Origin: a virus
IMG/VR virus record: IMGVR_UViG_3300032293_000722
Span: 1 to 30,056 of that record
Direction: 5' to 3' (one strand)
DNA: 30,056 nucleotides
Below the pieces are notes generated by a model. That model saw only the letters and a program-made list of their open reading frames with translations. It did no database searches and was not told where the DNA came from. This document shows, in pieces, positions 3,535-29,979 of the stretch. Within the stretch, counting starts at the first letter, position 1; each line of letters begins with the position of its first letter. The translations under genes and the position numbers were made by a program.

Positions 3535-3801
3535 TTACAACTCAATACTGATTTCATTGTCTTCAAGAAACAATGTGTAATCAACATATACATTATCATC
3601 GTCATCGTGAATGTTCCAAGTCCTGATGGTGTATTCACGACCATCTTCCGTTGTAATGAAGATACGATTTGAGTAATCTGATTCCCAATCCCATTCAAAT
3701 ATATTTAACGGGATTTGTTTTTCAGTGAAAATCTTATCAATTAAGACAAGACATAAATGACGATAAGAACTAAATTCGTTTGGGAGTGTGATGTTTTCCA
3801 T
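3535..3801 (-). CDS. Small acidic protein, unknown function
   Basis: The 88-aa product is rich in Asp and Glu, with a run HDDDDNVYVDYTLFLEDNE near the C-terminus, and has no recognisable domain. It is the last gene of the leftward arm. Its start is fixed by an excellent promoter ending 4 nt before the ATG (TTTG, 20-nt spacer, TATCTTTG), so the mRNA is predicted to be leaderless. The acidity would suit an anti-host or anti-restriction protein that mimics DNA, but this is only a hypothesis. Confidence 0.75.
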   Translation of the reverse strand: MENITLPNEFSSYRHLCLVLIDKIFTEKQIPLNIFEWDWESDYSNRIFITTEDGREYTIRTWNIHDDDDNVYVDYTLFLEDNEISIEL

Positions 3802-3805
3802 ATTT

Positions 3806-3837
3806 CAAAGATACTTTAATTATTTTACTTAACCAAA
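3806..3837 (-). promoter_or_regulatory. Bacteroidota-type promoter for gene 3535-3801
   Basis: In sense orientation TTTG (3834-3837), 20-nt spacer, TATCTTTG (3806-3813), then 4 nt (aaat) to the ATG. This matches TTTG / TAnnTTTG fully and puts the predicted +1 at the start codon. Confidence 0.78.
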
Positions 3838-4064
3838 TTTTCACCATCAAAAATCAAAATCCAATTGTAGTTTTTGATTTTATACAACAATTCTTCAGAT
3901 GAAATGTTTCTTCTGTTTTGACCAATTGATGCGGTTCCAACAATGATTTTGTAATTACCATTTTTGTATTGTTTATCAATGTTGATGAATGTGTTGTTCC
4001 ACTCATAACCATCTTCATCAATCACTTTGAATATCTGTCCAACTTTCAAATCTTGTTTTTCCAT
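3825..4064 (-). CDS. Small protein, unknown function
   Basis: The 79-aa product begins MEKQDLKVGQIFKVIDEDGY and looks like a small beta-barrel fold (SH3-like pattern of VGQIFKVID...NYKIIVG), but no family is recognised. It is a monocistronic unit: its own promoter box TATCTTTG ends 4 nt before the ATG, and its end overlaps the promoter of the next leftward gene. Confidence 0.72.
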   Translation of the reverse strand: MEKQDLKVGQIFKVIDEDGYEWNNTFINIDKQYKNGNYKIIVGTASIGQNRRNISSEELLYKIKNYNWILIFDGENLVK

Positions 4065-4068
4065 ATTT

Positions 4069-4076
4069 CAAAGATA
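4069..4076 (-). promoter_or_regulatory. -7 box TATCTTTG for gene 3825-4064
   Basis: The sense sequence is TATCTTTG-aaat-ATG, identical to the box of the 3535-3801 gene. No clear TTTG -33 element is visible 19-21 nt upstream, so this promoter is weaker or depends on another factor. Confidence 0.6.
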
Positions 4077-4092
4077 CAAATTATTTTTATTA

Positions 4093-5214
4093 TTACCTAA
4101 TCATCTTAAAATTTATTCCTGAGGTAATTGATTCAGAAGTATAAGATTCAAGTTCAGTTTGAATACGACCTTCCTGTGTTAGTTTGGTCCAACGGTTAAA
4201 TGATTTACGTTTCCAATAGTTAATCAAATTCTCCAAGTCATATTTGTTTGGTTCAGGTCTAATTAATTCCTCACCAGTTAGGATATGTTCTTTTACATTT
4301 GTAAACCCGAATGTGGACATATAGTAACGTTTCTGTTGTTTGGTCTCACATTTCGTTTTTAAGAACACTTTGAGTTCATTGTGAAGGGTTTTATCATAAA
4401 CCTTAATATGATTCATTAGGATTGAAATAACCTTGTTTAATTCACGTGATTTGGGTGAAGATGGTTTGGGGTCAACCAACATTCCTTTCCAATTTGGATT
4501 CCCATAATGTTCACGACATTTGTTTCTTAACTCAAAGTAGATTTCATCAATGGGGGTCAACAAGTTTGTGGATTCAGTAAGACCCTTAAACTTAATGTAA
4601 GGTTCAAGTCCATCATACTGAGAATTGGTTTTTGTATTTCCGTATAGTGACGTAGTTTCAAATACCAAAATGTTTGTTCCATATTTCTTATTAAACATTT
4701 CCCTAACCTCATTTGATATACAAACCAAAGACATTAGTTTTCCACCAAGATAGTTAAACCCAAATGGTTGAACAGGAACGATTGTCTGTCCGTTGTAGAT
4801 ATGGGGATTTACTTTATCCAATCGTAATGATTCACCAAAGTATTCGTTTCTCGGTTTAATAGAAGACACTGGTGATGATATTCTAACAAAACCAACCCAA
4901 GTATTGGTTGAACGTTCTTTAAGACCTACAGTGAGTTTTCTACCGATTTGTGATTCTATGGGGAAGGACGCAATCTGTGTCGTTAGTTCAGTAAATTCTT
5001 TTGAATCTATTTCTACAAGTTCCAAGTCCATATCCATTGGATTCATTGTGTAATCATTGAACACACGACCATCCACTGGTTCTAATGTCATATTATTAAG
5101 ACGTTCAAGTTTCTTTTGTAGATAATAATCTGTTATATCATTCAATCCCTCATAAAAGGATTTGAACCGATTCATCATTTGATAAACCTCTTCTTGTGTA
5201 AAATGTAACTCCAT
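4093..5214 (-). CDS. DUF4338 / DruA-like protein
   Basis: This 373-aa product is by far the largest leftward-arm protein. Residues about 90-200 follow the pattern I know from DUF4338 (DruA of the Druantia defence system and phage homologues): a GRKL strand, WVGFVRISSPVSSIKPR, then VPVQPFGFNYLGGKLMSL, SNEVREMFNKKYGTNILVFE and TTSLYG followed by a QYDGLEPYIKFKGLTEST segment. The DruA molecular activity is not settled, so no reaction is given. It has its own promoter and lies downstream of a leftward terminator, so it is an independent unit. A phage homologue could be a modification, nuclease-like or counter-defence factor. The C-terminal 130 residues are basic and helical. Confidence 0.6.
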   Translation of the reverse strand: MELHFTQEEVYQMMNRFKSFYEGLNDITDYYLQKKLERLNNMTLEPVDGRVFNDYTMNPMDMDLELVEIDSKEFTELTTQIASFPIESQIGRKLTVGLKERSTNTWVGFVRISSPVSSIKPRNEYFGESLRLDKVNPHIYNGQTIVPVQPFGFNYLGGKLMSLVCISNEVREMFNKKYGTNILVFETTSLYGNTKTNSQYDGLEPYIKFKGLTESTNLLTPIDEIYFELRNKCREHYGNPNWKGMLVDPKPSSPKSRELNKVISILMNHIKVYDKTLHNELKVFLKTKCETKQQKRYYMSTFGFTNVKEHILTGEELIRPEPNKYDLENLINYWKRKSFNRWTKLTQEGRIQTELESYTSESITSGINFKMIR

Positions 5215-5218
5215 AATT

Positions 5219-5249
5219 CAAATATAGTAAACTTTTTTTAATTAGCAAT
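5219..5249 (-). promoter_or_regulatory. Promoter for the DruA-like gene
   Basis: Sense orientation ATTG (5246-5249), 19-nt spacer, TATATTTG (5219-5226), then 4 nt to the ATG at 5214. The -7 box matches TAnnTTTG. The -33 element immediately follows the terminator hairpin of the preceding unit. Confidence 0.72.
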
Positions 5250-5250
5250 A

Positions 5251-5273
5251 AAAAATCCCCAATTAAGGGGATT
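5251..5273 (-). terminator. Intrinsic terminator of the leftward operon 6245-5278
   Basis: AATCCCC (5254-5260), 6-nt loop, GGGGATT (5267-5273) form a perfect 7-bp stem. Read leftward, the stem is followed by a T run complementary to the A's at 5251-5255. It lies 4 nt past the stop of gene 5278-5580. A-rich flanks on both sides may let it act in both directions. Confidence 0.82.
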
Positions 5274-5277
5274 ATTT

Positions 5278-5580
5278 TTATTTCCTAACTACTACATTAC
5301 ATTTAAGAATCTTACCTGATTCGGTTATTCTACTACTTTGTTCTTGTTGGACCGATAACATCACAAAGGAGTTAATTTTCACTGGTTCCCACTTAATCAA
5401 GTCATAAACCAATTGAACATCTAACACGGTTTCATCACCTGTAATGGATGTATTGGTGTGTAGTTTACAATTCCATCCTGTGAGTAATTTTCCATCTTCA
5501 TAACTCTTCCAAACTAATTTTGGTTCAGTTATGATTTGACCAAATAAAAAGGTCTCTTTCTTTTCAAATATATTTTCCAT
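5278..5580 (-). CDS. Small protein, possibly OB-fold-like, unknown function
   Basis: This 100-aa product is predicted to be mostly beta strand (FLFGQIITEPKLVWKS, LLTGWNCKLHTNTSI, INSFVMLSVQQEQSS, KILKCNVVVRK). The strand spacing is loosely like an OB fold such as a single-stranded-DNA-binding protein, but no diagnostic residues are seen and this is a weak guess. It is the last gene of a four-gene leftward operon, 6 nt after the preceding gene and directly before a strong terminator. No promoter is visible immediately before it. Confidence 0.68.
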   Translation of the reverse strand: MENIFEKKETFLFGQIITEPKLVWKSYEDGKLLTGWNCKLHTNTSITGDETVLDVQLVYDLIKWEPVKINSFVMLSVQQEQSSRITESGKILKCNVVVRK

Positions 5581-5586
5581 ATTGTA

Positions 5587-5802
5587 TTATTTAATCGTGT
5601 TAATATGTTCGTCAATTTTCAAGAAGGATTCACCCAATTCTTTTGTGTAACCATCTTGAACGTATTTTGCCATCATTGTTGAAATTTTGACAACATCACT
5701 CAAGTTTGGTTTTTTGTCAACCAACTTAAAATATTCAATTGTCGCATTGATTTGTGATTGTCTTACAATCAGTTCCTGTTTTCTATCTTCTTGTGATTTC
5801 AT
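5587..5802 (-). CDS. Small helical protein, unknown function
   Basis: The 71-aa product is almost entirely helical and charged (QEDRKQELIVRQSQINATIE, then VVKISTMMAKYVQDGY), as in small phage regulators or coiled-coil partners, but no family is recognised. The ATG lies 3 nt after the stop of the upstream gene 5806-6072, so it is translated from the same mRNA. Confidence 0.65.
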   Translation of the reverse strand: MKSQEDRKQELIVRQSQINATIEYFKLVDKKPNLSDVVKISTMMAKYVQDGYTKELGESFLKIDEHINTIK

Positions 5803-5805
5803 ATC

Positions 5806-6072
5806 TTAAAAGGTATAATAAGTTGAAAAGTTTTCAGTATCAATTTCAATATTGTCTAAATAGTGTCGGTCTTGGATTAGGACAACTCCTTTGGTGTGTA
5901 ATGGTTCATCAAAGTATTCATTTAATGCATCATTAAACTCATCACTGTCCTCATCATACTCACCTTCATAACCATACTCTCTCAACTCATTTAATAAGTC
6001 CTCAACACTATCAAACTCTTTTGTAATGTCGTAGTCGGCTTTCACCCTAATTGTTTTTGTTATTTGTATCAT
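5806..6072 (-). CDS. Small acidic protein, unknown function
   Basis: The 88-aa product is strongly acidic in its middle (YEGEYDEDSDEFNDALNEYF) with a short basic beta strand at the N-terminus (MIQITKTIRVKADYD). No known domain is seen. The net charge suits a DNA-mimic inhibitor of a host enzyme, which is speculation. It starts 5 nt after the stop of gene 6078-6245 and shares that gene's promoter. Confidence 0.68.
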   Translation of the reverse strand: MIQITKTIRVKADYDITKEFDSVEDLLNELREYGYEGEYDEDSDEFNDALNEYFDEPLHTKGVVLIQDRHYLDNIEIDTENFSTYYTF

Positions 6073-6077
6073 ATCTT

Positions 6078-6245
6078 TTAGTGTTTGTCTTTTAATAGTT
6101 CTTCGTATGCTTCCTTCTCCATTTCAAGTTGTTGTTCTCTATACAACTCATACTGGTAATCTTCATCACCATCTGTGTTTCCTGGAAATTGTTTTAACAA
6201 TTCCTCCATAGTCATTTGTTCGTAGTTTCTTTTCGTGTATCCCAT
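6078..6245 (-). CDS. Small acidic helical protein, unknown function
   Basis: The chosen start gives 55 aa (MGYTKRNYEQMTMEELLKQF...). The frame stays open to 6335, but that extension would be translated from a terminator hairpin at 6290-6316. A promoter ending exactly 4 nt before ATG 6245 (TTTG, N20, TATATTTT) supports the shorter form. The protein is Glu-rich and probably one long helix. It is first in an operon with 5806-6072, 5587-5802 and 5278-5580. Confidence 0.68.
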   Translation of the reverse strand: MGYTKRNYEQMTMEELLKQFPGNTDGDEDYQYELYREQQLEMEKEAYEELLKDKH

Positions 6246-6249
6246 AGTT

Positions 6250-6281
6250 AAAATATAGGAAACAGAATTTATTGAGTCAAA
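6250..6281 (-). promoter_or_regulatory. Promoter of the 6245-5278 operon
   Basis: Sense orientation TTTG (6278-6281), 20-nt spacer, TATATTTT (6250-6257; T in place of the final G), 4 nt (aact), ATG. It lies just downstream of the previous unit's terminator. Confidence 0.65.
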
Positions 6282-6289
6282 TTTCTGGT

Positions 6290-6316
6290 AAAAAAAAGGG
6301 AGAATTTCTTCCCCCC
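6290..6316 (-). terminator. Leftward intrinsic terminator after gene 6349-6567
   Basis: A GC-rich imperfect hairpin (GGGAG at 6298-6302 with CTTCCC at 6308-6313, one bulged base). In the leftward direction it is followed by eight T's, complementary to 6290-6297. It separates the 6349-6567 unit from the next promoter. Confidence 0.68.
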
Positions 6317-6348
6317 AATATAACAAACACATCACAGTTTATTTTCTT

Positions 6349-6567
6349 TTAAGAACCAATCTCCCAAATCTCACCACCATCAAATTCCTCAATACAATCA
6401 ACCCCATAGTCCGTGTATAAGTGACACGGTGAATCAACATTTTGTTTCTTCAGTTGTCTGTGTAAAATCTCATTTCTAACAGGACAGTTGAATGTGAACT
6501 CAGGTAATTCTTTTCTTACCTTGAAGGTCATATTCGTTGGGTAGTGTTCAATGATTATCGTTTTCAT
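6349..6567 (-). CDS. Small protein, unknown function
   Basis: The 72-aa product is MKTIIIEHYPTNMTFKVRKE... with a Cys pair far apart (in FNCPVRNE and DSPCHLY) and a third in DYGVDCIEEF; the C-terminus is acidic. No domain is recognised. It is a single-gene unit with its own promoter (AATATTTG 4 nt before the ATG) and a terminator downstream. Confidence 0.7.
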   Translation of the reverse strand: MKTIIIEHYPTNMTFKVRKELPEFTFNCPVRNEILHRQLKKQNVDSPCHLYTDYGVDCIEEFDGGEIWEIGS

Positions 6568-6571
6568 AGTT

Positions 6572-6603
6572 CAAATATTGTTAATCTTCTTCTTCAATTT
6601 CAA
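6572..6603 (-). promoter_or_regulatory. Promoter for gene 6349-6567
   Basis: Sense TTG (6601-6603), 21-nt spacer, AATATTTG (6572-6579), 4 nt, ATG. The first T of TAnnTTTG is an A, so the match is partial, but the spacing to the ATG is the standard one for this arm. Confidence 0.55.
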
Positions 6604-6730
6604 TTGTAATGGAGTATCCCCCATCAATTCGTTCCATTTCAACCTCATCAAATAGGTTAGTCATAAAGTCCCACAGTAAATTTACCTTTTGGTCCTGTGT
6701 TAAGTCGGGGGTGATTGTGTATTGTTTCAT
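6581..6730 (-). CDS. Small acidic protein, unknown function
   Basis: The chosen start gives 49 aa (MKQYTITPDLTQDQKVNLLW...). An in-frame ATG at 6772 would overlap the upstream gene by 28 nt. I preferred 6730 because a promoter (TTTG, N20, GACCTTTG) ends exactly 4 nt before it. The C-terminus is very acidic (IEIEEED). No domain is recognised. Confidence 0.62.
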   Translation of the reverse strand: MKQYTITPDLTQDQKVNLLWDFMTNLFDEVEMERIDGGYSITIEIEEED

Positions 6731-6734
6731 CTTA

Positions 6735-6766
6735 CAAAGGTCGGTTAAAGTTTTGACAATTCCAAA
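6735..6766 (-). promoter_or_regulatory. Promoter for gene 6581-6730
   Basis: Sense TTTG (6763-6766), exactly 20 nt, GACCTTTG (6735-6742), 4 nt (taag), ATG. The -7 box keeps the A and TTTG but has G for the first T. The same GACCTTTG box occurs before gene 7278-7631. Confidence 0.62.
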
Positions 6767-6966
6767 TTCCAATGATAAACTTTTGACAATTCAGCATCAC
6801 CCTCTTTGATTGAATCAAGGACCTCATCAATCTGTTCTGGTTCAACTGTGGTCATCTCCAACCACACTTCTTTGGTTCTGTTAAGGACCACAACGATGTC
6901 CCATTTCGTTTTGTTTGGTGTCATGATAACTGACAAGTTCCTCAAGGATATTACGTATTGTTTCAT
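6745..6966 (-). CDS. Small protein, unknown function
   Basis: The 73-aa product starts MKQYVISLRNLSVIMTPNKT, then a beta strand (WDIVVVLN) and an acidic helix (VEPEQIDEVLDSIKEGDAEL). A second in-frame ATG (MTPNKT) exists, but the promoter box ending 4 nt before ATG 6966 favours the longer form. The first four residues (MKQY) match those of the next leftward gene; the rest does not. Confidence 0.7.
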   Translation of the reverse strand: MKQYVISLRNLSVIMTPNKTKWDIVVVLNRTKEVWLEMTTVEPEQIDEVLDSIKEGDAELSKVYHWNLELSKL

Positions 6967-6970
6967 AATT

Positions 6971-7002
6971 CAAAGATAGGGGTTTATATTCAGTTATACA
7001 AA
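6971..7002 (-). promoter_or_regulatory. Promoter for gene 6745-6966
   Basis: Sense TTTG (6999-7002), 20-nt spacer, TATCTTTG (6971-6978), 4 nt (aatt), ATG. This is a full consensus match. The -33 element touches the stop codon of the upstream gene. Confidence 0.8.
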
Positions 7003-7257
7003 TTAAAATTCAGGTGTGATGAAACATTGGTCATTGTGATTGAACACAGAACCACTCAATCCCAATTCATCGTTCTCAGAGAACAAAACAGTGTTGTAGT
7101 AACCAACAGACACAAAACGACAATGTTCATACATCTCGTAGATATCATAGAATTTCATTTTAACAAGTTTCTTGTAATCAGTGTTTGTGAGTTCAAAGAA
7201 GATTCTCAAGTCATTTTTTCCTTGATATGTTTCAGTTTCAAAAGAGATGATTTTCAT
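7003..7257 (-). CDS. Small protein, unknown function
   Basis: The 84-aa product is a beta-alpha-beta style small protein (MKIISFETETYQGKNDLRIF, then a helix KKLVKMKFYDIYEMYEHC and strand RFVSVGYYNTVLFSE). It has no recognised domain. It is a single-gene unit preceded by its own promoter, whose -33 element lies within the end of the upstream gene. Confidence 0.7.
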   Translation of the reverse strand: MKIISFETETYQGKNDLRIFFELTNTDYKKLVKMKFYDIYEMYEHCRFVSVGYYNTVLFSENDELGLSGSVFNHNDQCFITPEF

Positions 7258-7261
7258 AATT

Positions 7262-7293
7262 CAAAGTTCATTATTAGTTACGACATTACCAAA
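7262..7293 (-). promoter_or_regulatory. Promoter for gene 7003-7257
   Basis: Sense TTTG (7290-7293), exactly 20 nt, GAACTTTG (7262-7269), 4 nt (aatt), ATG. The first base of the -7 box is G where T is expected. Confidence 0.62.
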
Positions 7294-7631
7294 TACTCAC
7301 ACAATAATTCTTGAAAATATTCTTCATTGTATTCACCTTTGTAGTAAGACAAAACCCAATCAACATCATATTCCAAATCTGAAGCGGTAAACAAAAAGTC
7401 ATCAGACATTGTTTCAATCACATCTTCAGAAGTGAAACTTTCCATATTATGGTTTTCATCAAACCATTTGGAGAATGTTTTTTCCATCTTGTCTTGTAGT
7501 GTATCACCATCAGAAAAGTATGCGGGATGTGACTCGGTCCAATTGTTGAAGTATTCCATTACAACACTTCTGTCTTCTTTATTCAATTTTGATAACTTAT
7601 CAAAATTCTGTTCAATCAATCTGTTTTTCAT
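7278..7631 (-). CDS. Acidic helical protein, unknown function
   Basis: This 117-aa product is acidic throughout and mostly helical (SKLNKEDRSVVMEYFNNWTE, DKMEKTFSKWFDENHNMESF, a C-terminal YYKGEYNEEYFQELLCEYLV). No catalytic motif is visible. Length and acidity resemble small early phage proteins that bind host factors, but the target cannot be inferred. It is a single-gene unit. Confidence 0.72.
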   Translation of the reverse strand: MKNRLIEQNFDKLSKLNKEDRSVVMEYFNNWTESHPAYFSDGDTLQDKMEKTFSKWFDENHNMESFTSEDVIETMSDDFLFTASDLEYDVDWVLSYYKGEYNEEYFQELLCEYLVMS

Positions 7632-7635
7632 ATTT

Positions 7636-7643
7636 CAAAGGTC
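7636..7643 (-). promoter_or_regulatory. -7-like box GACCTTTG for gene 7278-7631
   Basis: The sense sequence is GACCTTTG-aaat-ATG, with the fixed 4-nt spacing seen for nine other genes here. No TTTG -33 element is obvious at 19-21 nt upstream. Confidence 0.5.
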
Positions 7644-7648
7644 GTTAA

Positions 7649-7855
7649 TTATTTTACCATAAACTCATCGTGGAATGTTTTACCAGTAGTCGCCATCATC
7701 ACTTTACGACTTTTTGAATTGTTTGGACTGAACTTACCATCAACAATAGTGTATGAAGCATTTTCATTAGGCCAAATGTAAGTTGTGTTTGGATTAGAAA
7801 ACCTCAATACATTCTTGAAATAATCCTCCTGTTGTTTTTTTTGATTTGGGGTCAT
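7649..7855 (-). CDS. Small basic protein, unknown function
   Basis: The 68-aa product (MTPNQKKQQEDYFKNVLRFS...) is unusual in this arm for being basic, with KSRKVMMATTGKTFHDEF near the C-terminus. No domain is recognised. Its promoter lies about 33 nt upstream, so unlike its neighbours it should have a short 5' leader. Confidence 0.65.
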   Translation of the reverse strand: MTPNQKKQQEDYFKNVLRFSNPNTTYIWPNENASYTIVDGKFSPNNSKSRKVMMATTGKTFHDEFMVK

Positions 7856-7887
7856 AGTCGTAGTTTTTATAGTTGTTTAGTGTCTTA

Positions 7888-7919
7888 CAAAATTACTTAA
7901 TTAGTTTGACTTATCCAAA
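7888..7919 (-). promoter_or_regulatory. Promoter for gene 7649-7855
   Basis: Sense TTTG (7916-7919), 20-nt spacer, TAATTTTG (7888-7895), a full consensus match. The -7 box ends 32 nt before the ATG, predicting a leader of roughly 28 nt. Confidence 0.75.
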
Positions 7920-8242
7920 TATTTTTTGATAATCTCATTACTTGAACCTTCAATACGTTCACATTCAAGGTTGAATAGAATAAACTTTTGATTACGGATA
8001 GTTTTCCAATGAGTATCGTGAAATTGTTTGTATACTTTAGAAAACAAGTTTTGTTGTTTTACAGATGATTCGTGAAGATAAGCAAATCTCATCAAACTAT
8101 CTTCTGATAAAATCAACCAACCATCATTATACGATTCTTGGAACTTGATGTAGTTTAACATCATAGTTTTGGTCCATAAAGAACTTGGGACATCAAAGTG
8201 AGTTTTACCTCTCAAACTTGTTTTCTTGATTGTGTTTTCCAT
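7901..8242 (-). CDS. Small protein, unknown function
   Basis: The chosen start gives 113 aa (MENTIKKTSLRGKTHFDVPS...). An upstream in-frame ATG at 8260 exists, but the promoter box ends 4 nt before ATG 8242 and would lie inside the longer form. The product mixes helices and aromatic residues (SSLWTKTMMLNYIKFQESYN, WLILSEDSLMRFAYLHESSV), with a basic patch near HWKTIRNQKFILFN. It could be a small nucleic-acid or protein-binding regulator; no family is recognised. Confidence 0.66.
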   Translation of the reverse strand: MENTIKKTSLRGKTHFDVPSSLWTKTMMLNYIKFQESYNDGWLILSEDSLMRFAYLHESSVKQQNLFSKVYKQFHDTHWKTIRNQKFILFNLECERIEGSSNEIIKKYLDKSN

Positions 8243-8246
8243 ATCA

Positions 8247-8277
8247 CAAAGAAACAACAAAAAACTGATATTACAAA
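8247..8277 (-). promoter_or_regulatory. Promoter for gene 7901-8242
   Basis: Sense TTTG (8274-8277), 19-nt spacer, TTTCTTTG (8247-8254), 4 nt (tgat), ATG. Second base of the -7 box is T instead of A. Confidence 0.58.
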
Positions 8278-9386: not shown

Positions 9387-9530
9387 ATGAAGAGTATTTT
9401 AATAGATGAAAAAATACACGGTATGATAAAATCACATTGTGTAGAGAATGGACTCGTAATGAGAGTTTTGATTGAGAAATTAATAGTTGAAGAATTAAAC
9501 AAAGAAAAAAATAAGAATAATGAAGGATAA
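9387..9530 (+). CDS. Ribbon-helix-helix (Arc/MetJ-type) regulator, 47 aa
   Basis: A short gene, MKSILIDEKIHGMIKSHCVE...LIEKLIVEELNKEK. The pattern of one N-terminal strand (KSILIDEKIH), helix A (GMIKSHCVENG) and helix B (VMRVLIEKLIVEEL) is that of minimal RHH repressors, which bind DNA as dimers through paired strands. It overlaps the next gene by 11 nt. It lies directly behind a promoter with an inverted repeat in its spacer, so autorepression and control of the early/late switch are likely but inferred. It is easily missed because of its size. Confidence 0.72.
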   Translation: MKSILIDEKIHGMIKSHCVENGLVMRVLIEKLIVEELNKEKNKNNEG

Positions 9531-10068
9531 TAACAATATAGTATTCAGAGCATCTTGGTTCAAAACACTTGATAGGTGGTCACCAGAACTTGTTAAAGAA
9601 TTTATTACTGTGTTGGATTGTTATTATCACAATAGACCAATTGAAATAACTAGTGACAGGGTTTTGGATATGTGGACAAACGCACAACCTTTGTTAGATG
9701 GTGATAGAGAACGATATACAAAAAGAGTTGAAGTAAACCGAGAAAATGGTAAAAATGGTGGTGCTCCAAAAGGAAATAAGAACGCATCTAAATCAACCGA
9801 AAACAACCAAGAACAACCCAAAACAACCAAACGGTTAATAAAACAACCGAAACAACCCATAGATAAAGATATAGATAAAGATATAGATATAGATATAGAT
9901 ATTGATAAAGATATTGAGATTGAAAACGAAACCGAAAAGGATATTGATAAAACTAAATTGAATAAAGAAGATAAAGTATCAATACACTATATTATGGATA
10001 TTGAAAATTGTTCTTACGATGAAGCTATGAATCTTTATCTTCAACAAAAACAATTAATATTTAATTAG
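9520..10068 (+). CDS. Putative replication-associated protein (DUF6291-like N-terminus)
   Basis: In the 182-aa product, residues 1-85 (FRASWFKTLDRWSPELVKEF, then ERYTKRVEVNRENGKNGGAP) resemble the small helical domain called DUF6291 found at the front of phage and plasmid replication-type proteins, where a GKKGG-like motif precedes a linker. The linker here is extraordinary: Lys/Gln/Thr-rich, then an Ile-Asp/Lys-Asp run (residues about 113-145). A short C-terminal domain (VSIHYIMDIENCSYDEAMNL) follows. No polymerase, helicase or primase is seen elsewhere, so this is the best replication candidate. The assignment is moderate. Confidence 0.55.
   Translation: MKDNNNIVFRASWFKTLDRWSPELVKEFITVLDCYYHNRPIEITSDRVLDMWTNAQPLLDGDRERYTKRVEVNRENGKNGGAPKGNKNASKSTENNQEQPKTTKRLIKQPKQPIDKDIDKDIDIDIDIDKDIEIENETEKDIDKTKLNKEDKVSIHYIMDIENCSYDEAMNLYLQQKQLIFN
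9860..9920 (+). repeat. Hexanucleotide-like tandem repeat (GATAAA/GATATA) within the coding sequence
   Basis: About ten tandem 6-bp units, GATAAA or GATATA with GATATT variants, encode the Asp-Lys/Asp-Ile run. They may be slippage-prone protein linker DNA. Because the gene is replication-like, they could also act as origin iterons or a DNA-unwinding element. Confidence 0.7.
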
Positions 10069-13764: not shown

Positions 13765-13922
13765 CCTATCAGTTAGCAAAGGAGGATTTAACCAAGTTCC
13801 ATCAAATAGAGGAGATGAGTGTGTATTTATGTTTGAATACTGCATCGTTAATTAAGGATAGAATTATCAGTGAACAAAACGAAATGAAAAAATTAAAAAA
13901 TGAAATGAAATCAAACCGATGA
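13114..13922 (+). CDS. Tail-assembly-chaperone-like protein, -1 frameshifted long form
   Basis: A -1 slip on T TTT TTT (13614-13620, within CT9GC) joins 169 zero-frame residues to 100 residues from the other frame, giving about 269 aa. At the joint the sequence reads GCSTFFFAYKSS. The added part includes an acidic linker and LTYQLAKEDLTKFHQIEEMS, a helical pattern typical of the downstream half of gpG-gpT-like chaperones, and ends with a charged helix. Known siphophages make both forms by low-frequency -1 frameshifting. A homopolymer sequencing error or transcriptional slippage is an alternative. Confidence 0.65.
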
Positions 13923-14461
13923 ATGAATACATAAGTTTCCATAAAGTGTTGGACTACATAGAACAATTCCAAGAACAATCACCAATAATGAATAGTTATG
14001 GGTATGGTAACTTGGTAGATTTCACAAGAACAATAAGTGGTGATACACAAAACAGTCCTGTGAAATATCCTTATTTATTTGCAGTTCCACAGACAATAGA
14101 ATATTCTGAAAATACAACTATCTATCAGGTTAGTTTGTTATTTACAGATATAATCAATACGGACTATATGAATGAAAAAGACATCATCAGTGATATGTCT
14201 TTACAAGCACGTAGATTCCTATCTTACATCAAAAGGGGTATTGAAACATTCCCTGAGTTGTATAATAACTTTGATATTGAATTACCAGTCCAAGCGATTC
14301 CCTTTATGGAACGTATGGGTGACCACGTAGCGGGGGTTGCGATGGACGTAAACTTAATCGTATTTGAAGACATCAATGCGTGTGATTATTATCCAACTCC
14401 TACTCCATCTGTTACCACAACATCAACTCCGACTCCGACCCCCACTGTAACACCATCATAA
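13919..14461 (+). CDS. Putative neck/tail-completion protein with Thr-Pro tail
   Basis: Residues 1-160 of this 180-aa product form a compact domain (YGYGNLVDFTRTISGD, KYPYLFAVPQTIEYSENTTI, VSLLFTDIINTDYMNEKDII, PFMERMGDHVAGVAMDVNLI) that I have seen in Bacteroidota phages between terminase and tail genes. It resembles tail-terminator or completion proteins in fold order. The last 20 residues are a TPTPTPTVTPS-type tail, one of several Thr-Pro linkers in this genome. Overlaps the frameshifted chaperone stop by 4 nt. Confidence 0.58.
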   Translation: MNEYISFHKVLDYIEQFQEQSPIMNSYGYGNLVDFTRTISGDTQNSPVKYPYLFAVPQTIEYSENTTIYQVSLLFTDIINTDYMNEKDIISDMSLQARRFLSYIKRGIETFPELYNNFDIELPVQAIPFMERMGDHVAGVAMDVNLIVFEDINACDYYPTPTPSVTTTSTPTPTPTVTPS

Positions 14462-27926: not shown

Positions 27927-29078
27927 ATGGAGTGGAACGGAAGAAAAATTAGACCTGTTGGTAACGTAATTAAATCAAAAGAATTTGATTTTCAAGATGC
28001 ATTAAAACCTTTGGGTGAAAAAAAGAATAATGGTTTTGTATGGGTTCCTGGTGGTCAGTTTGGTAGTGTTCAATCACCTGATACTACACCACCTGTGTCA
28101 CCAAGTCCAACACCGACTGTAACGACAACACAGACATTGACTCCTACTCCGAGTGTAACCCCAACATTAACAAACACTCCAACCAATACAGGGACACCAA
28201 CAAACACTCCTACTCCGAGTGTGACCCCAACACAGACGATTACACCTACTAATACGGGAACACCAACAAACACTCCAACTCCAACATTTGCTTTTGATTC
28301 AGACGCATTAAACTATATCAACACACTTGTTACATCGGGAGCAACACTATCATTTACAGAAAAAACATATATCAATAATTTCTATGTAAATGCTAAATCA
28401 CAGGGGGTTTATTCATATTTTGGTGATTTCTATCCAATGTTGGGTGGAACATCGTCAACACACTCAATTAACGCAAAATCACCAGGAACATATAACTTAA
28501 CATTCTTTGGTGGTTGGACACACAACTCATCAGGAGCAACTCCAAATGGAACAAATGCTTACGCTAATACAATTCAGGATAATGCTATTTATCCAAATAG
28601 TTTGGGATTAACGGGTTATTATGTTGGTTCATCTTATTCAGGTGGTAGTGGTCAATATATCTTCAGTAATAGAATTAGTGTTACAACACCCGTTATATCA
28701 TACAGACAACAAAGAGCAGGTGCTACGGGGAATATTTTAGGTTATGGATTTAGAAATGGTGTTGAAAGACCAAATGGAACTGGTAATCTAAATTACATGT
28801 TCGGTTACCAACAATCAATGAGAACTGCTGGTAATACTATTTGGTATTACGCACAAGCAAATCTAATATTGAGTGGAACATCAGTAGCATCAACAGCTGG
28901 ACCATTAACTGATTATGTTCAAATCGCAAGAGATGGAACAACAAACTATGGTGAAGGAAGATGTCAATTCGCAAATATTTCATCTTGGAGTGGTTCATCA
29001 CCAACATCAGGACAATTAACAATAATGAATACATTAGTCAATCAATTACAGAGTGACTTTGGAAGGAGTGTAATATAA
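27927..29078 (+). CDS. Tail-fibre/receptor-binding-like protein with Thr-Pro linker
   Basis: In this 383-aa product, residues 1-48 (MEWNGRKIRPVGNVIKSKEF, FDFQDALKPLGEK) are a short conserved N-terminal module common in Bacteroidota phages, probably an attachment anchor. A Thr-Pro-Asn-rich linker of about 70 residues follows. The C-terminal domain begins SDALNYINTLVTSGATLSFT and includes DFYPMLGGTSSTHSINAKSP and GGWTHNSSGATPNGTNAYAN, which I recognise as a recurring phage domain of unknown structure, plausibly lectin-like and surface-binding. Its ending SPTSGQLTIMNTLVNQLQSD is helical. Confidence 0.66.
   Translation: MEWNGRKIRPVGNVIKSKEFDFQDALKPLGEKKNNGFVWVPGGQFGSVQSPDTTPPVSPSPTPTVTTTQTLTPTPSVTPTLTNTPTNTGTPTNTPTPSVTPTQTITPTNTGTPTNTPTPTFAFDSDALNYINTLVTSGATLSFTEKTYINNFYVNAKSQGVYSYFGDFYPMLGGTSSTHSINAKSPGTYNLTFFGGWTHNSSGATPNGTNAYANTIQDNAIYPNSLGLTGYYVGSSYSGGSGQYIFSNRISVTTPVISYRQQRAGATGNILGYGFRNGVERPNGTGNLNYMFGYQQSMRTAGNTIWYYAQANLILSGTSVASTAGPLTDYVQIARDGTTNYGEGRCQFANISSWSGSSPTSGQLTIMNTLVNQLQSDFGRSVI
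28075..28293 (+). repeat. Thr-Pro-Asn linker repeat DNA
   Basis: Low-complexity DNA encodes repeated TPT, TPS and NTPT units, with near-identical copies of a segment coding for [16 protein letters not shown] and [10 protein letters not shown]. Similar segments occur in the genes at 13919, 15047 and 29503. Confidence 0.85.
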
Positions 29079-29308: not shown

Positions 29309-29510
29309 TATTGGTGGAATAGCATTTAACGAATATTACATAAAGAGTGTTGAATTGGAATTAGACACTTGTAATTTAACAATAAAGGTGATATTCCACA
29401 AAGATAAAAAAAGAATTGAAAGAGAAAGACACTACAAGATACAAACAGATTGTAATGTTGATATAAATGAGTTAGTTAGAAACTTGGGTAATATAATAAA
29501 AGATGAGTAG
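29301..29510 (+). CDS. Small protein of the fibre cluster, unknown function
   Basis: The 69-aa product is a short beta/alpha protein ([20 protein letters not shown], then a Lys/Arg-rich stretch [13 protein letters not shown] and an acidic helix). No domain is recognised. It overlaps its neighbours by 8 nt on each side, so it is coupled with them. It could assist fibre folding or be a minor tail component. Confidence 0.6.
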
Positions 29511-29979
29511 AATTTTCATAAGAAAACAATTTAGTAATTATCTTGGTGAACAACGTGCGATAGATGATATTGTTACATTCTTTATCCCTGATGGTCCACC
29601 ACCTTCACCAACACCTACTCCTGTTCCTGTCACTCCTACGCCTACCCCGAGTATTACACCGACTAACACACCAACGGTTACAAACACTACAACTCCTACG
29701 GTGACTCCTACGACAACGAATACTCCAAGTGTAACCCAAACCATCACCCCTACAAATACAAGTAGTCCTACACCAACGAACACTCCTGTTCCTGTCACTC
29801 CTACGCCTACTCCGAGTGTAACAACAACGATGACCCCAACAGTGACTCCAACGAATACAAGTAGTCCTACACCAACAAACACTCCAACACCAACCGAACC
29901 TGGTGGATATAAATTACAAGCCGAAAACTCTGACTTTATACAAACTGAAGGTGGAGACGAGATAAATATAGAACATTAA
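29503..29979 (+). CDS. Fibre-cluster protein: short conserved ends joined by a long Thr-Pro linker
   Basis: In the 158-aa product, residues 1-30 ([27 protein letters not shown]) and the last 25 ([20 protein letters not shown]) are short motifs I know from small Bacteroidota phage proteins, where they can lie close together. Here about 100 residues of [11 protein letters not shown] repeats separate them. The protein looks like a small virion component with a Thr-Pro spacer inserted. A rod-like linker projecting from the tail is plausible. It is followed 18 nt later by the start of the beta-helical fibre gene. Confidence 0.62.
29590..29900 (+). repeat. Thr-Pro linker repeat DNA, with long internal direct repeats
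   Basis: Near-perfect direct repeats are visible: a segment beginning CCTGTTCCTGTCACTCCTAC at about 29622 and again at about 29786, and one beginning ACAAGTAGTCCTACACCAAC at about 29758 and 29858. They would favour slippage or recombination and allow linker length changes. Confidence 0.85.

Follow-up and report, generated by a model that had tools for sequence, protein, structure and literature searches.

The leftward-reading arm of the virus record IMGVR_UViG_3300032293_000722, which belongs to an uncultivated Bacteroidota virus and is analysed here over its 30,056 bases (the window), is very probably an array of accessory genes with promoters of the sigma-ABfr type, whose predicted transcription start (+1) falls on the A of the ATG, so that the messages would be leaderless, and these genes are exchanged between related phages at the joints that separate them. 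Ten of the 18 small genes of the arm, named here by the position of their start codon, carry a promoter-like box at a fixed distance of four nucleotides (N4) from that codon: TTTG-N4-ATG is found at 3801, 4064, 5214, 6567, 6730, 6966, 7257, 7631 and 8242, and TTTT-N4-ATG at 6245. All ten sites had been proposed in a first-pass annotation of the sequence, and every one of them is present.

Of the 18 leftward starts, 9 have TTTG at this offset where 0.19 would be expected (binomial P about 7e-14), and 5000 dinucleotide shuffles of the upstream regions gave a mean of 0.21 such starts and a maximum of 3. The window also has 26 called rightward genes, and TTT[G/T] is absent from the N4 offset in all of them. 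In five of the ten sites exactly 20 nt (N20) separate the 8-nt box from the TTTG of the -33 element upstream, and in one site 19 nt (N19), making six of ten in the window; at 5214 and 6567 ATTG replaces this TTTG, at N19 and N21, respectively. The strict 8-nt box TANNTTTG occurs at four window sites only; several others have G at -12 (GACC/GAAC-TTTG), the 6567 box has A at this position (AATATTTG) and the 8242 box reads TTTCTTTG. The remaining eight leftward genes are not leaderless by the box criterion, six having no nearby box and two (7855 and 9299) having one further upstream of the start; the operon-internal genes of the arm at 5580, 5802, 6072, 8488 and 8793 show no motif at their starts. 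A scan for sigma-70 promoters returned 37 matches, compared with 38 in shuffles.

Relatives were gathered with the 373-amino acid protein of the 5214 gene (loci L001-L010), with the terminase (L068-L084) and by motif scans. The window and 17 related loci yielded 70 unique sites, for which TTT[G/T]-N4-ATG was the sole selection criterion; one contig-finding scan fixed A at -11 at one site per contig, and otherwise the promoter marks were not used in choosing sites. A-11 is present in 69 of the 70 sites and TTTG in 67, and G is absent from all 140 positions at -10 and -9. Position -12 is T in 46 sites and G in 23, and the upstream TTTG is found at exactly N20 in 39 and at N19 in 7. The -7 element of Flavobacterium, TAHHTTTG, occupies -12 to -5, and the transcript begins 4 or 5 nt beyond it (PMC6847099); a second study (PMC9723704) gives the same box position. 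The phage sites resemble the sigma-ABfr housekeeping promoter (TTTG-N19/21-TAHHTTTG) in both elements, in their spacing, in A-11 and in the G-free -10/-9; the -7 element agrees with it, with T-12 in only 46 of 70, as does the -33 TTTG at N19-21. They differ from mapped sigma-ABfr promoters in having G-12 in a third of the cases and in the predicted +1 on the start codon. Taken together, the N4 spacing and the box-to-start rule of 4-5 nt place the predicted +1 on the A of the ATG. At the sequence level, independent marks and the relatives strongly support the proposal of housekeeping-type promoters that would start transcription there.

The annotation had proposed to weigh the spacing against chance in homologous genomes, where it clearly exceeds it. 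Among 408 genes called blind to the motif in the window and the related loci, with boxes considered up to 60 nt from the start, the box-to-start gap is 4 in 81 and no other gap from 0 to 30 occurs more than twice; gap 5 was seen once (L018:6082), as was gap 12 (L006:2737), and a minor cluster around 31-34 is the -33 element itself. In the relatives found by protein query only, TTTG was counted 23 times at gap 4, whereas the other gaps averaged 0.5. The joint core GTCAAACTAATTAACKA, used as a query containing neither box nor ATG, led to TTTG-N4-ATG at every distinct place with an upstream TTTG-like element, and none of the evident chance matches had TTTG-N4-ATG behind it. Five isolated Bacteroidota phages (Nonlabens P12024S, Flavobacterium FpV9 and 11b, Bacteroides B124-14 and Cellulophaga phi38:1) showed no gap-4 excess. 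Searched in plasmids, the joint gave no match, and comparison of the array DNA with isolated phages gave no meaningful match except the DruA-like gene described below and a terminator word. Single TATCTTTG-N4-ATG starts after TTAAC were also seen in L011, L030, L046 and other viral contigs, the search motif having contained them; isolated leaderless promoters may be more widespread.

A class of leadered genes provides a contrast. In the 7855 gene, and in a number of genes from L094, L002 and L067, the same promoter is followed by a leader of roughly 20-30 nt; after the box most of them read TAAG-A or AAAG-A, which a +1 at the A after four bases would predict. The A at the predicted +1 would accordingly belong to the ATG in the leaderless genes and to the leader in the leadered ones. 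The 7855 gene and L094:5471, 5222 and 5734, which are unrelated genes, share, ahead of the ATG, a conserved leader resembling ACACTTAACAACTATAAAAACTAC.

The leftward arm extends from about 9299 down to 3535, and the terminase, portal, capsid and tape-measure-like genes all lie on the right-reading strand. At the head of the two arms stand an HNH/endonuclease-VII-like gene (9299) and a divergent gene (9387). The annotated features of the array are as follows.

3535..3801 (-): 88-amino acid gene, family F9; predicted leaderless start TATCTTTG-AAAT-ATG, -33 TTTG at N20.
3802..3837 (-): promoter block of the 3801 gene; -33 TTTG at 3834-3837, -7 box at 3806-3813.
3825..4064 (-): 79-amino acid gene, an extra cassette; TTTG-N4-ATG start.
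4065..4100 (-): promoter block of the 4064 gene; box TATCTTTG at 4069-4076.
4093..5214 (-): 373-amino acid DruA/Mom-like protein; predicted leaderless start TATATTTG-AATT-ATG, the N4 start being common to homologues.
5215..5250 (-): promoter block of the 5214 gene; box at 5219-5226, -33-like ATTG at N19.
5254..5273 (scored on both strands): terminator stem-loop upstream of the 5214 promoter.
6078..6245 (-): 55-amino acid gene with the TTTT box variant; its L002 homologue has TATATTTG-N4-ATG.
6246..6281 (-): promoter block of the 6245 gene; TTTG at N20, box TATATTTT.
6297..6316 (-): terminator separating the transcription units of the 6567 and 6245 genes.
6349..6567 (-): 72-amino acid gene; predicted leaderless start AATATTTG-N4-ATG.
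6581..6730 (-): 49-amino acid gene; predicted leaderless start GACCTTTG-N4-ATG, TTTG at N20.
6745..6966 (-): 73-amino acid gene; predicted leaderless start TATCTTTG-N4-ATG, TTTG at N20.
6967..7002 (-): promoter joint before the 6966 gene; near-identical joint in L060.
7003..7257 (-): 84-amino acid gene; predicted leaderless start GAACTTTG-N4-ATG, TTTG at N20.
7278..7631 (-): 117-amino acid gene; predicted leaderless start GACCTTTG-N4-ATG, C-terminus YLVMS (then stop) encoded by the next promoter block.
7649..7855 (-): 68-amino acid gene of the contrast class; same promoter kind, leader of about 30 nt.
7901..8242 (-): 113-amino acid gene; predicted leaderless start TTTCTTTG-N4-ATG, TTTG at N19, C-terminus YLDKSN (then stop).

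Near-verbatim joints precede unrelated genes and fall into the classes AATTTGGTAATGTCAAACTAATTAACGAACTTTGAACT, AATTTGTATAACTGAATATAAACCCCTATCTTTGAATT and an array-head class GTTTGGTAGTGTAAAGTATTGGTTGTACCTTTGATGT, each directly followed by ATG. In the AATTTGGTAATGTCAAACTAATTAACGAACTTTGAACT class (18 junctions) the stop codon of the upstream gene is located between the two boxes, the start codon follows 17 nt after that stop, and the -33 element lies inside the last codons of the upstream gene. These codons belong at the same time to the promoter of the following gene, and for this reason unrelated proteins end in LxxS[N/K]: such C-termini were found in 11 proteins of 10 families among the 64 genes upstream of these promoters, and in 4 of 344 other genes. 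Tails of the LxxSN type occur in the window at 7631 and 8242, and also in L002, L067 and L099. In L014, L032, L037, L045, L060 and L067 the first array gene stands behind a head promoter TGTAAAGTATTGGTTGTACCTTTG (TACTTTTG in L067), which faces a divergent conserved gene.

Gene content changes across these joints. The joint at 6967..7002 is 97% identical over 40 nt to one of L060 with the same upstream gene and an unrelated downstream gene. The interval that separates the 3801 gene from the DruA-like gene holds an extra gene in the window, in L003 and in L005, a different one each time, and is empty in L001, L002, L004 and L007. Homologues of the 6966 gene in L002 and L037 have different upstream neighbours and both keep N4; likewise, those of the 6567 gene in L002 and L094 follow different upstream genes, all with N4, and 7 of the 10 homologues of the 3801 gene in related phages keep N4. 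Among accessory families, 23 homologous pairs have N4 on both sides and not one of them retains the upstream neighbour, whereas at non-N4 junctions it is the same in 320 pairs and different in 99; the pairs are not independent, and the contrast is large. Homologous upstream with unrelated downstream sequence was seen in 18 pairs, and the reverse in 25. Judged from these comparisons of sequence, the joints are boundaries where related phages gain, lose and swap genes. The earlier description of each gene as a promoter-gene cassette is consequently better founded than on the evidence first given for it, because the cassettes swap at the joint.

Four other explanations were weighed. It is unlikely, though worth consideration, that the promoters are real and the 5' end lies some bases off or varies, giving very short leaders or mixed starts. 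The spacing of 4 or 5 nt in F. johnsoniae and the single gaps of 5 and 12 are in agreement with such a view, whereas gap 4 is used almost exclusively (81 sites), so that the favoured position is taken by a purine, the A of the ATG. Quite improbable is a translation-initiation signal, that is, a ribosome-binding or start-associated motif of Bacteroidota in long, leadered polycistronic mRNAs without any promoter. The fixed distance to the ATG, the small, operon-compatible stop-to-start gaps at the joints and the SAS repeats near mycobacteriophage starts, proposed to act in translation (PMC3203893), speak for it. Nevertheless, such a signal requires neither TTTG at -36 to -33 with N20, nor A-11, nor a G-free -10/-9, all of which are present; the features that tune initiation in F. 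johnsoniae are A at -3 and mRNA structure, and UUUG is not among them (PMC6847099); the five operon-internal genes of the arm lack the motif; and the leadered genes bear the same boxes far upstream of the ATG. We give still less credence to joints that are integron-like or site-specific recombination sites with a secondary resemblance to promoters. Unrelated genes do stand behind near-identical joints, which are also sites of cassette insertion and swapping, but the single-strand DNA fold of the joints is not above that of shuffles (z = 0.34, 1.15 and 0.68), leaving no inverted-repeat structure; there are at least three joint classes, whose spacers differ while both promoter elements and N4 are retained; and the window genes that were scanned included no recognisable recombinase. 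Chance or a composition artefact of an AT-rich genome has a negligible probability, for although TTTG is a common AT-rich word, the shuffles never exceeded 3 of 18, and relatives share the spacing and the -33 element, which the five other Bacteroidota phages lack. The translation-signal, integron-site and chance readings were accordingly rejected.

Under the preferred explanation of leaderless genes behind sigma-ABfr-type promoters, unmodified host RNA polymerase with the primary sigma factor would recognise each promoter block, of the form A-TTTG[G/T] at -37 to -32, N19-20 and [T/G]AHHTTTG at -12 to -5, and would begin transcription at the A of the ATG, giving an AUG-first mRNA and leaderless translation. 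An early timing of the array is plausible, as it fits promoters that need no phage factor. The joint common to unrelated genes would allow exchange, in the simplest view through homologous or short-homology recombination between joints, and a newly gained gene would be expressed without the leaders or ribosome-binding signals of its neighbours.

Several points weigh against this explanation. Initiation 5 nt past the box would drop the A of the AUG. In mapped Flavobacterium promoters position -12 is almost always T, but 23 of the 70 sites have G there, a departure that may reflect reduced promoter strength or a host sigma factor that differs slightly. The genes would also lie on longer upstream transcripts, and leaderless mRNA may not be their main template. 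The first-pass annotation had given the genes terminators of their own in many cases, which is mostly incorrect: only two clear leftward ones (6316-6297 and 5273-5254) serve ten sites, and the 17-nt stop-to-start joints have no space for one. The transcripts are thus expected to be nested, with the genes that are not first being read from upstream promoters as well. Furthermore, some relatives came from a motif containing TTTG-N4-ATG, to which the protein-found subset is a partial answer, and the contigs are fragments from uncultured sources, some of them near-identical sisters that are not independent. Pattern matching and a terminase profile, each run once against genome contigs, returned no relatives, and the host baseline is taken from published leaderless rates.

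With respect to the proteins encoded, family and profile scans gave almost no matches for the array, the 5214 protein apart, which matches DruA (PF14236, E 5e-12) and phrog_19197. Its homologues occur in cyanophages and pelagiphages, one of them annotated as methylcarbamoylase Mom, and this DruA/Mom-like protein may have a role in phage DNA modification. A sub-threshold match of the 7631 protein to Tad4 (E = 0.02) was not used. On the other strand, 9520-10068 (+) encodes a DUF6291 protein (E 3e-9), possibly a replication gene, that diverges from the leftward arm, and long threonine-proline repeats (TPTPT...) are found in the probably structural proteins of 13919-14461, 27927-29078 and 29503-29979 (+), as well as in relatives.

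T4-type phages reportedly possess promoter-early-stem-loop (PeSL) cassettes, described by Arbiol in 2010 and Comeau in 2014 (as given in PMC4503421). These are similar to the present joints in that a repeated regulatory element, promoter included, lies between small genes and marks and probably mediates gene shuffling, which is likewise seen at the phage joints. They differ from the joints, most of which have no stem-loop terminator (two clear ones for ten sites) and whose promoter is of the host Bacteroidota type, joined directly to the start codon and reaching into the coding end of the gene upstream. The SAS repeats of cluster K mycobacteriophages are also short and directly precede many unrelated gene starts; however, SAS is GGGATAGGAGCCC, with a proposed translational role and no promoter elements (PMC3203893), and the joints read differently from this consensus and its Shine-Dalgarno-like pairing. 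Nor do the joints show the inverted repeat by which an integron attC folds as one strand. Leaderless genes of Actinobacteria, Deinococcus-Thermus and archaea, and lambda cI, are alike in the predicted +1 at the AUG and in the fixed box distance. In Bacteroidota such messages appear sparse: 5.5% of mapped mRNAs are leaderless in F. psychrophilum (PMC9723704), 13% of leaders in F. johnsoniae are 10 nt or shorter and 87% longer (PMC6847099), and about 3.7% of 5' untranslated regions in B. thetaiotaomicron are under 10 nt. Of 37 Bacteroidetes/Chlorobi genomes, a single one was reported by Zheng et al. (2011) to have leaderless genes (PMC3160421); their method relied on the Pribnow box and would overlook the Bacteroidota-type promoter. 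A literature search of incomplete coverage found no leaderless-gene array in a Bacteroidota phage.

We consider it somewhat better than an even chance that the arm is a plug-in array of a Bacteroidota phage lineage, in which a joint of about 40 bp, comprising a gene end, a housekeeping promoter and the next start codon, would express any recombined gene leaderless, bypassing the Shine-Dalgarno-independent recognition of leaders and leaving common LxxSN tails. Mapped Bacteroidota have few leaderless messages, and the way in which their ribosomes choose starts without Shine-Dalgarno pairing is still being worked out. An array of predicted leaderless genes is a natural test set and, if confirmed, would supply short promoter-start parts for Bacteroidota genetics. 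The box-N4-ATG arrangement also offers a rule for the correct calling of such small genes. For the phages themselves, the array would mean that small genes, possibly for host takeover or anti-defence, can be swapped and yet keep their expression.

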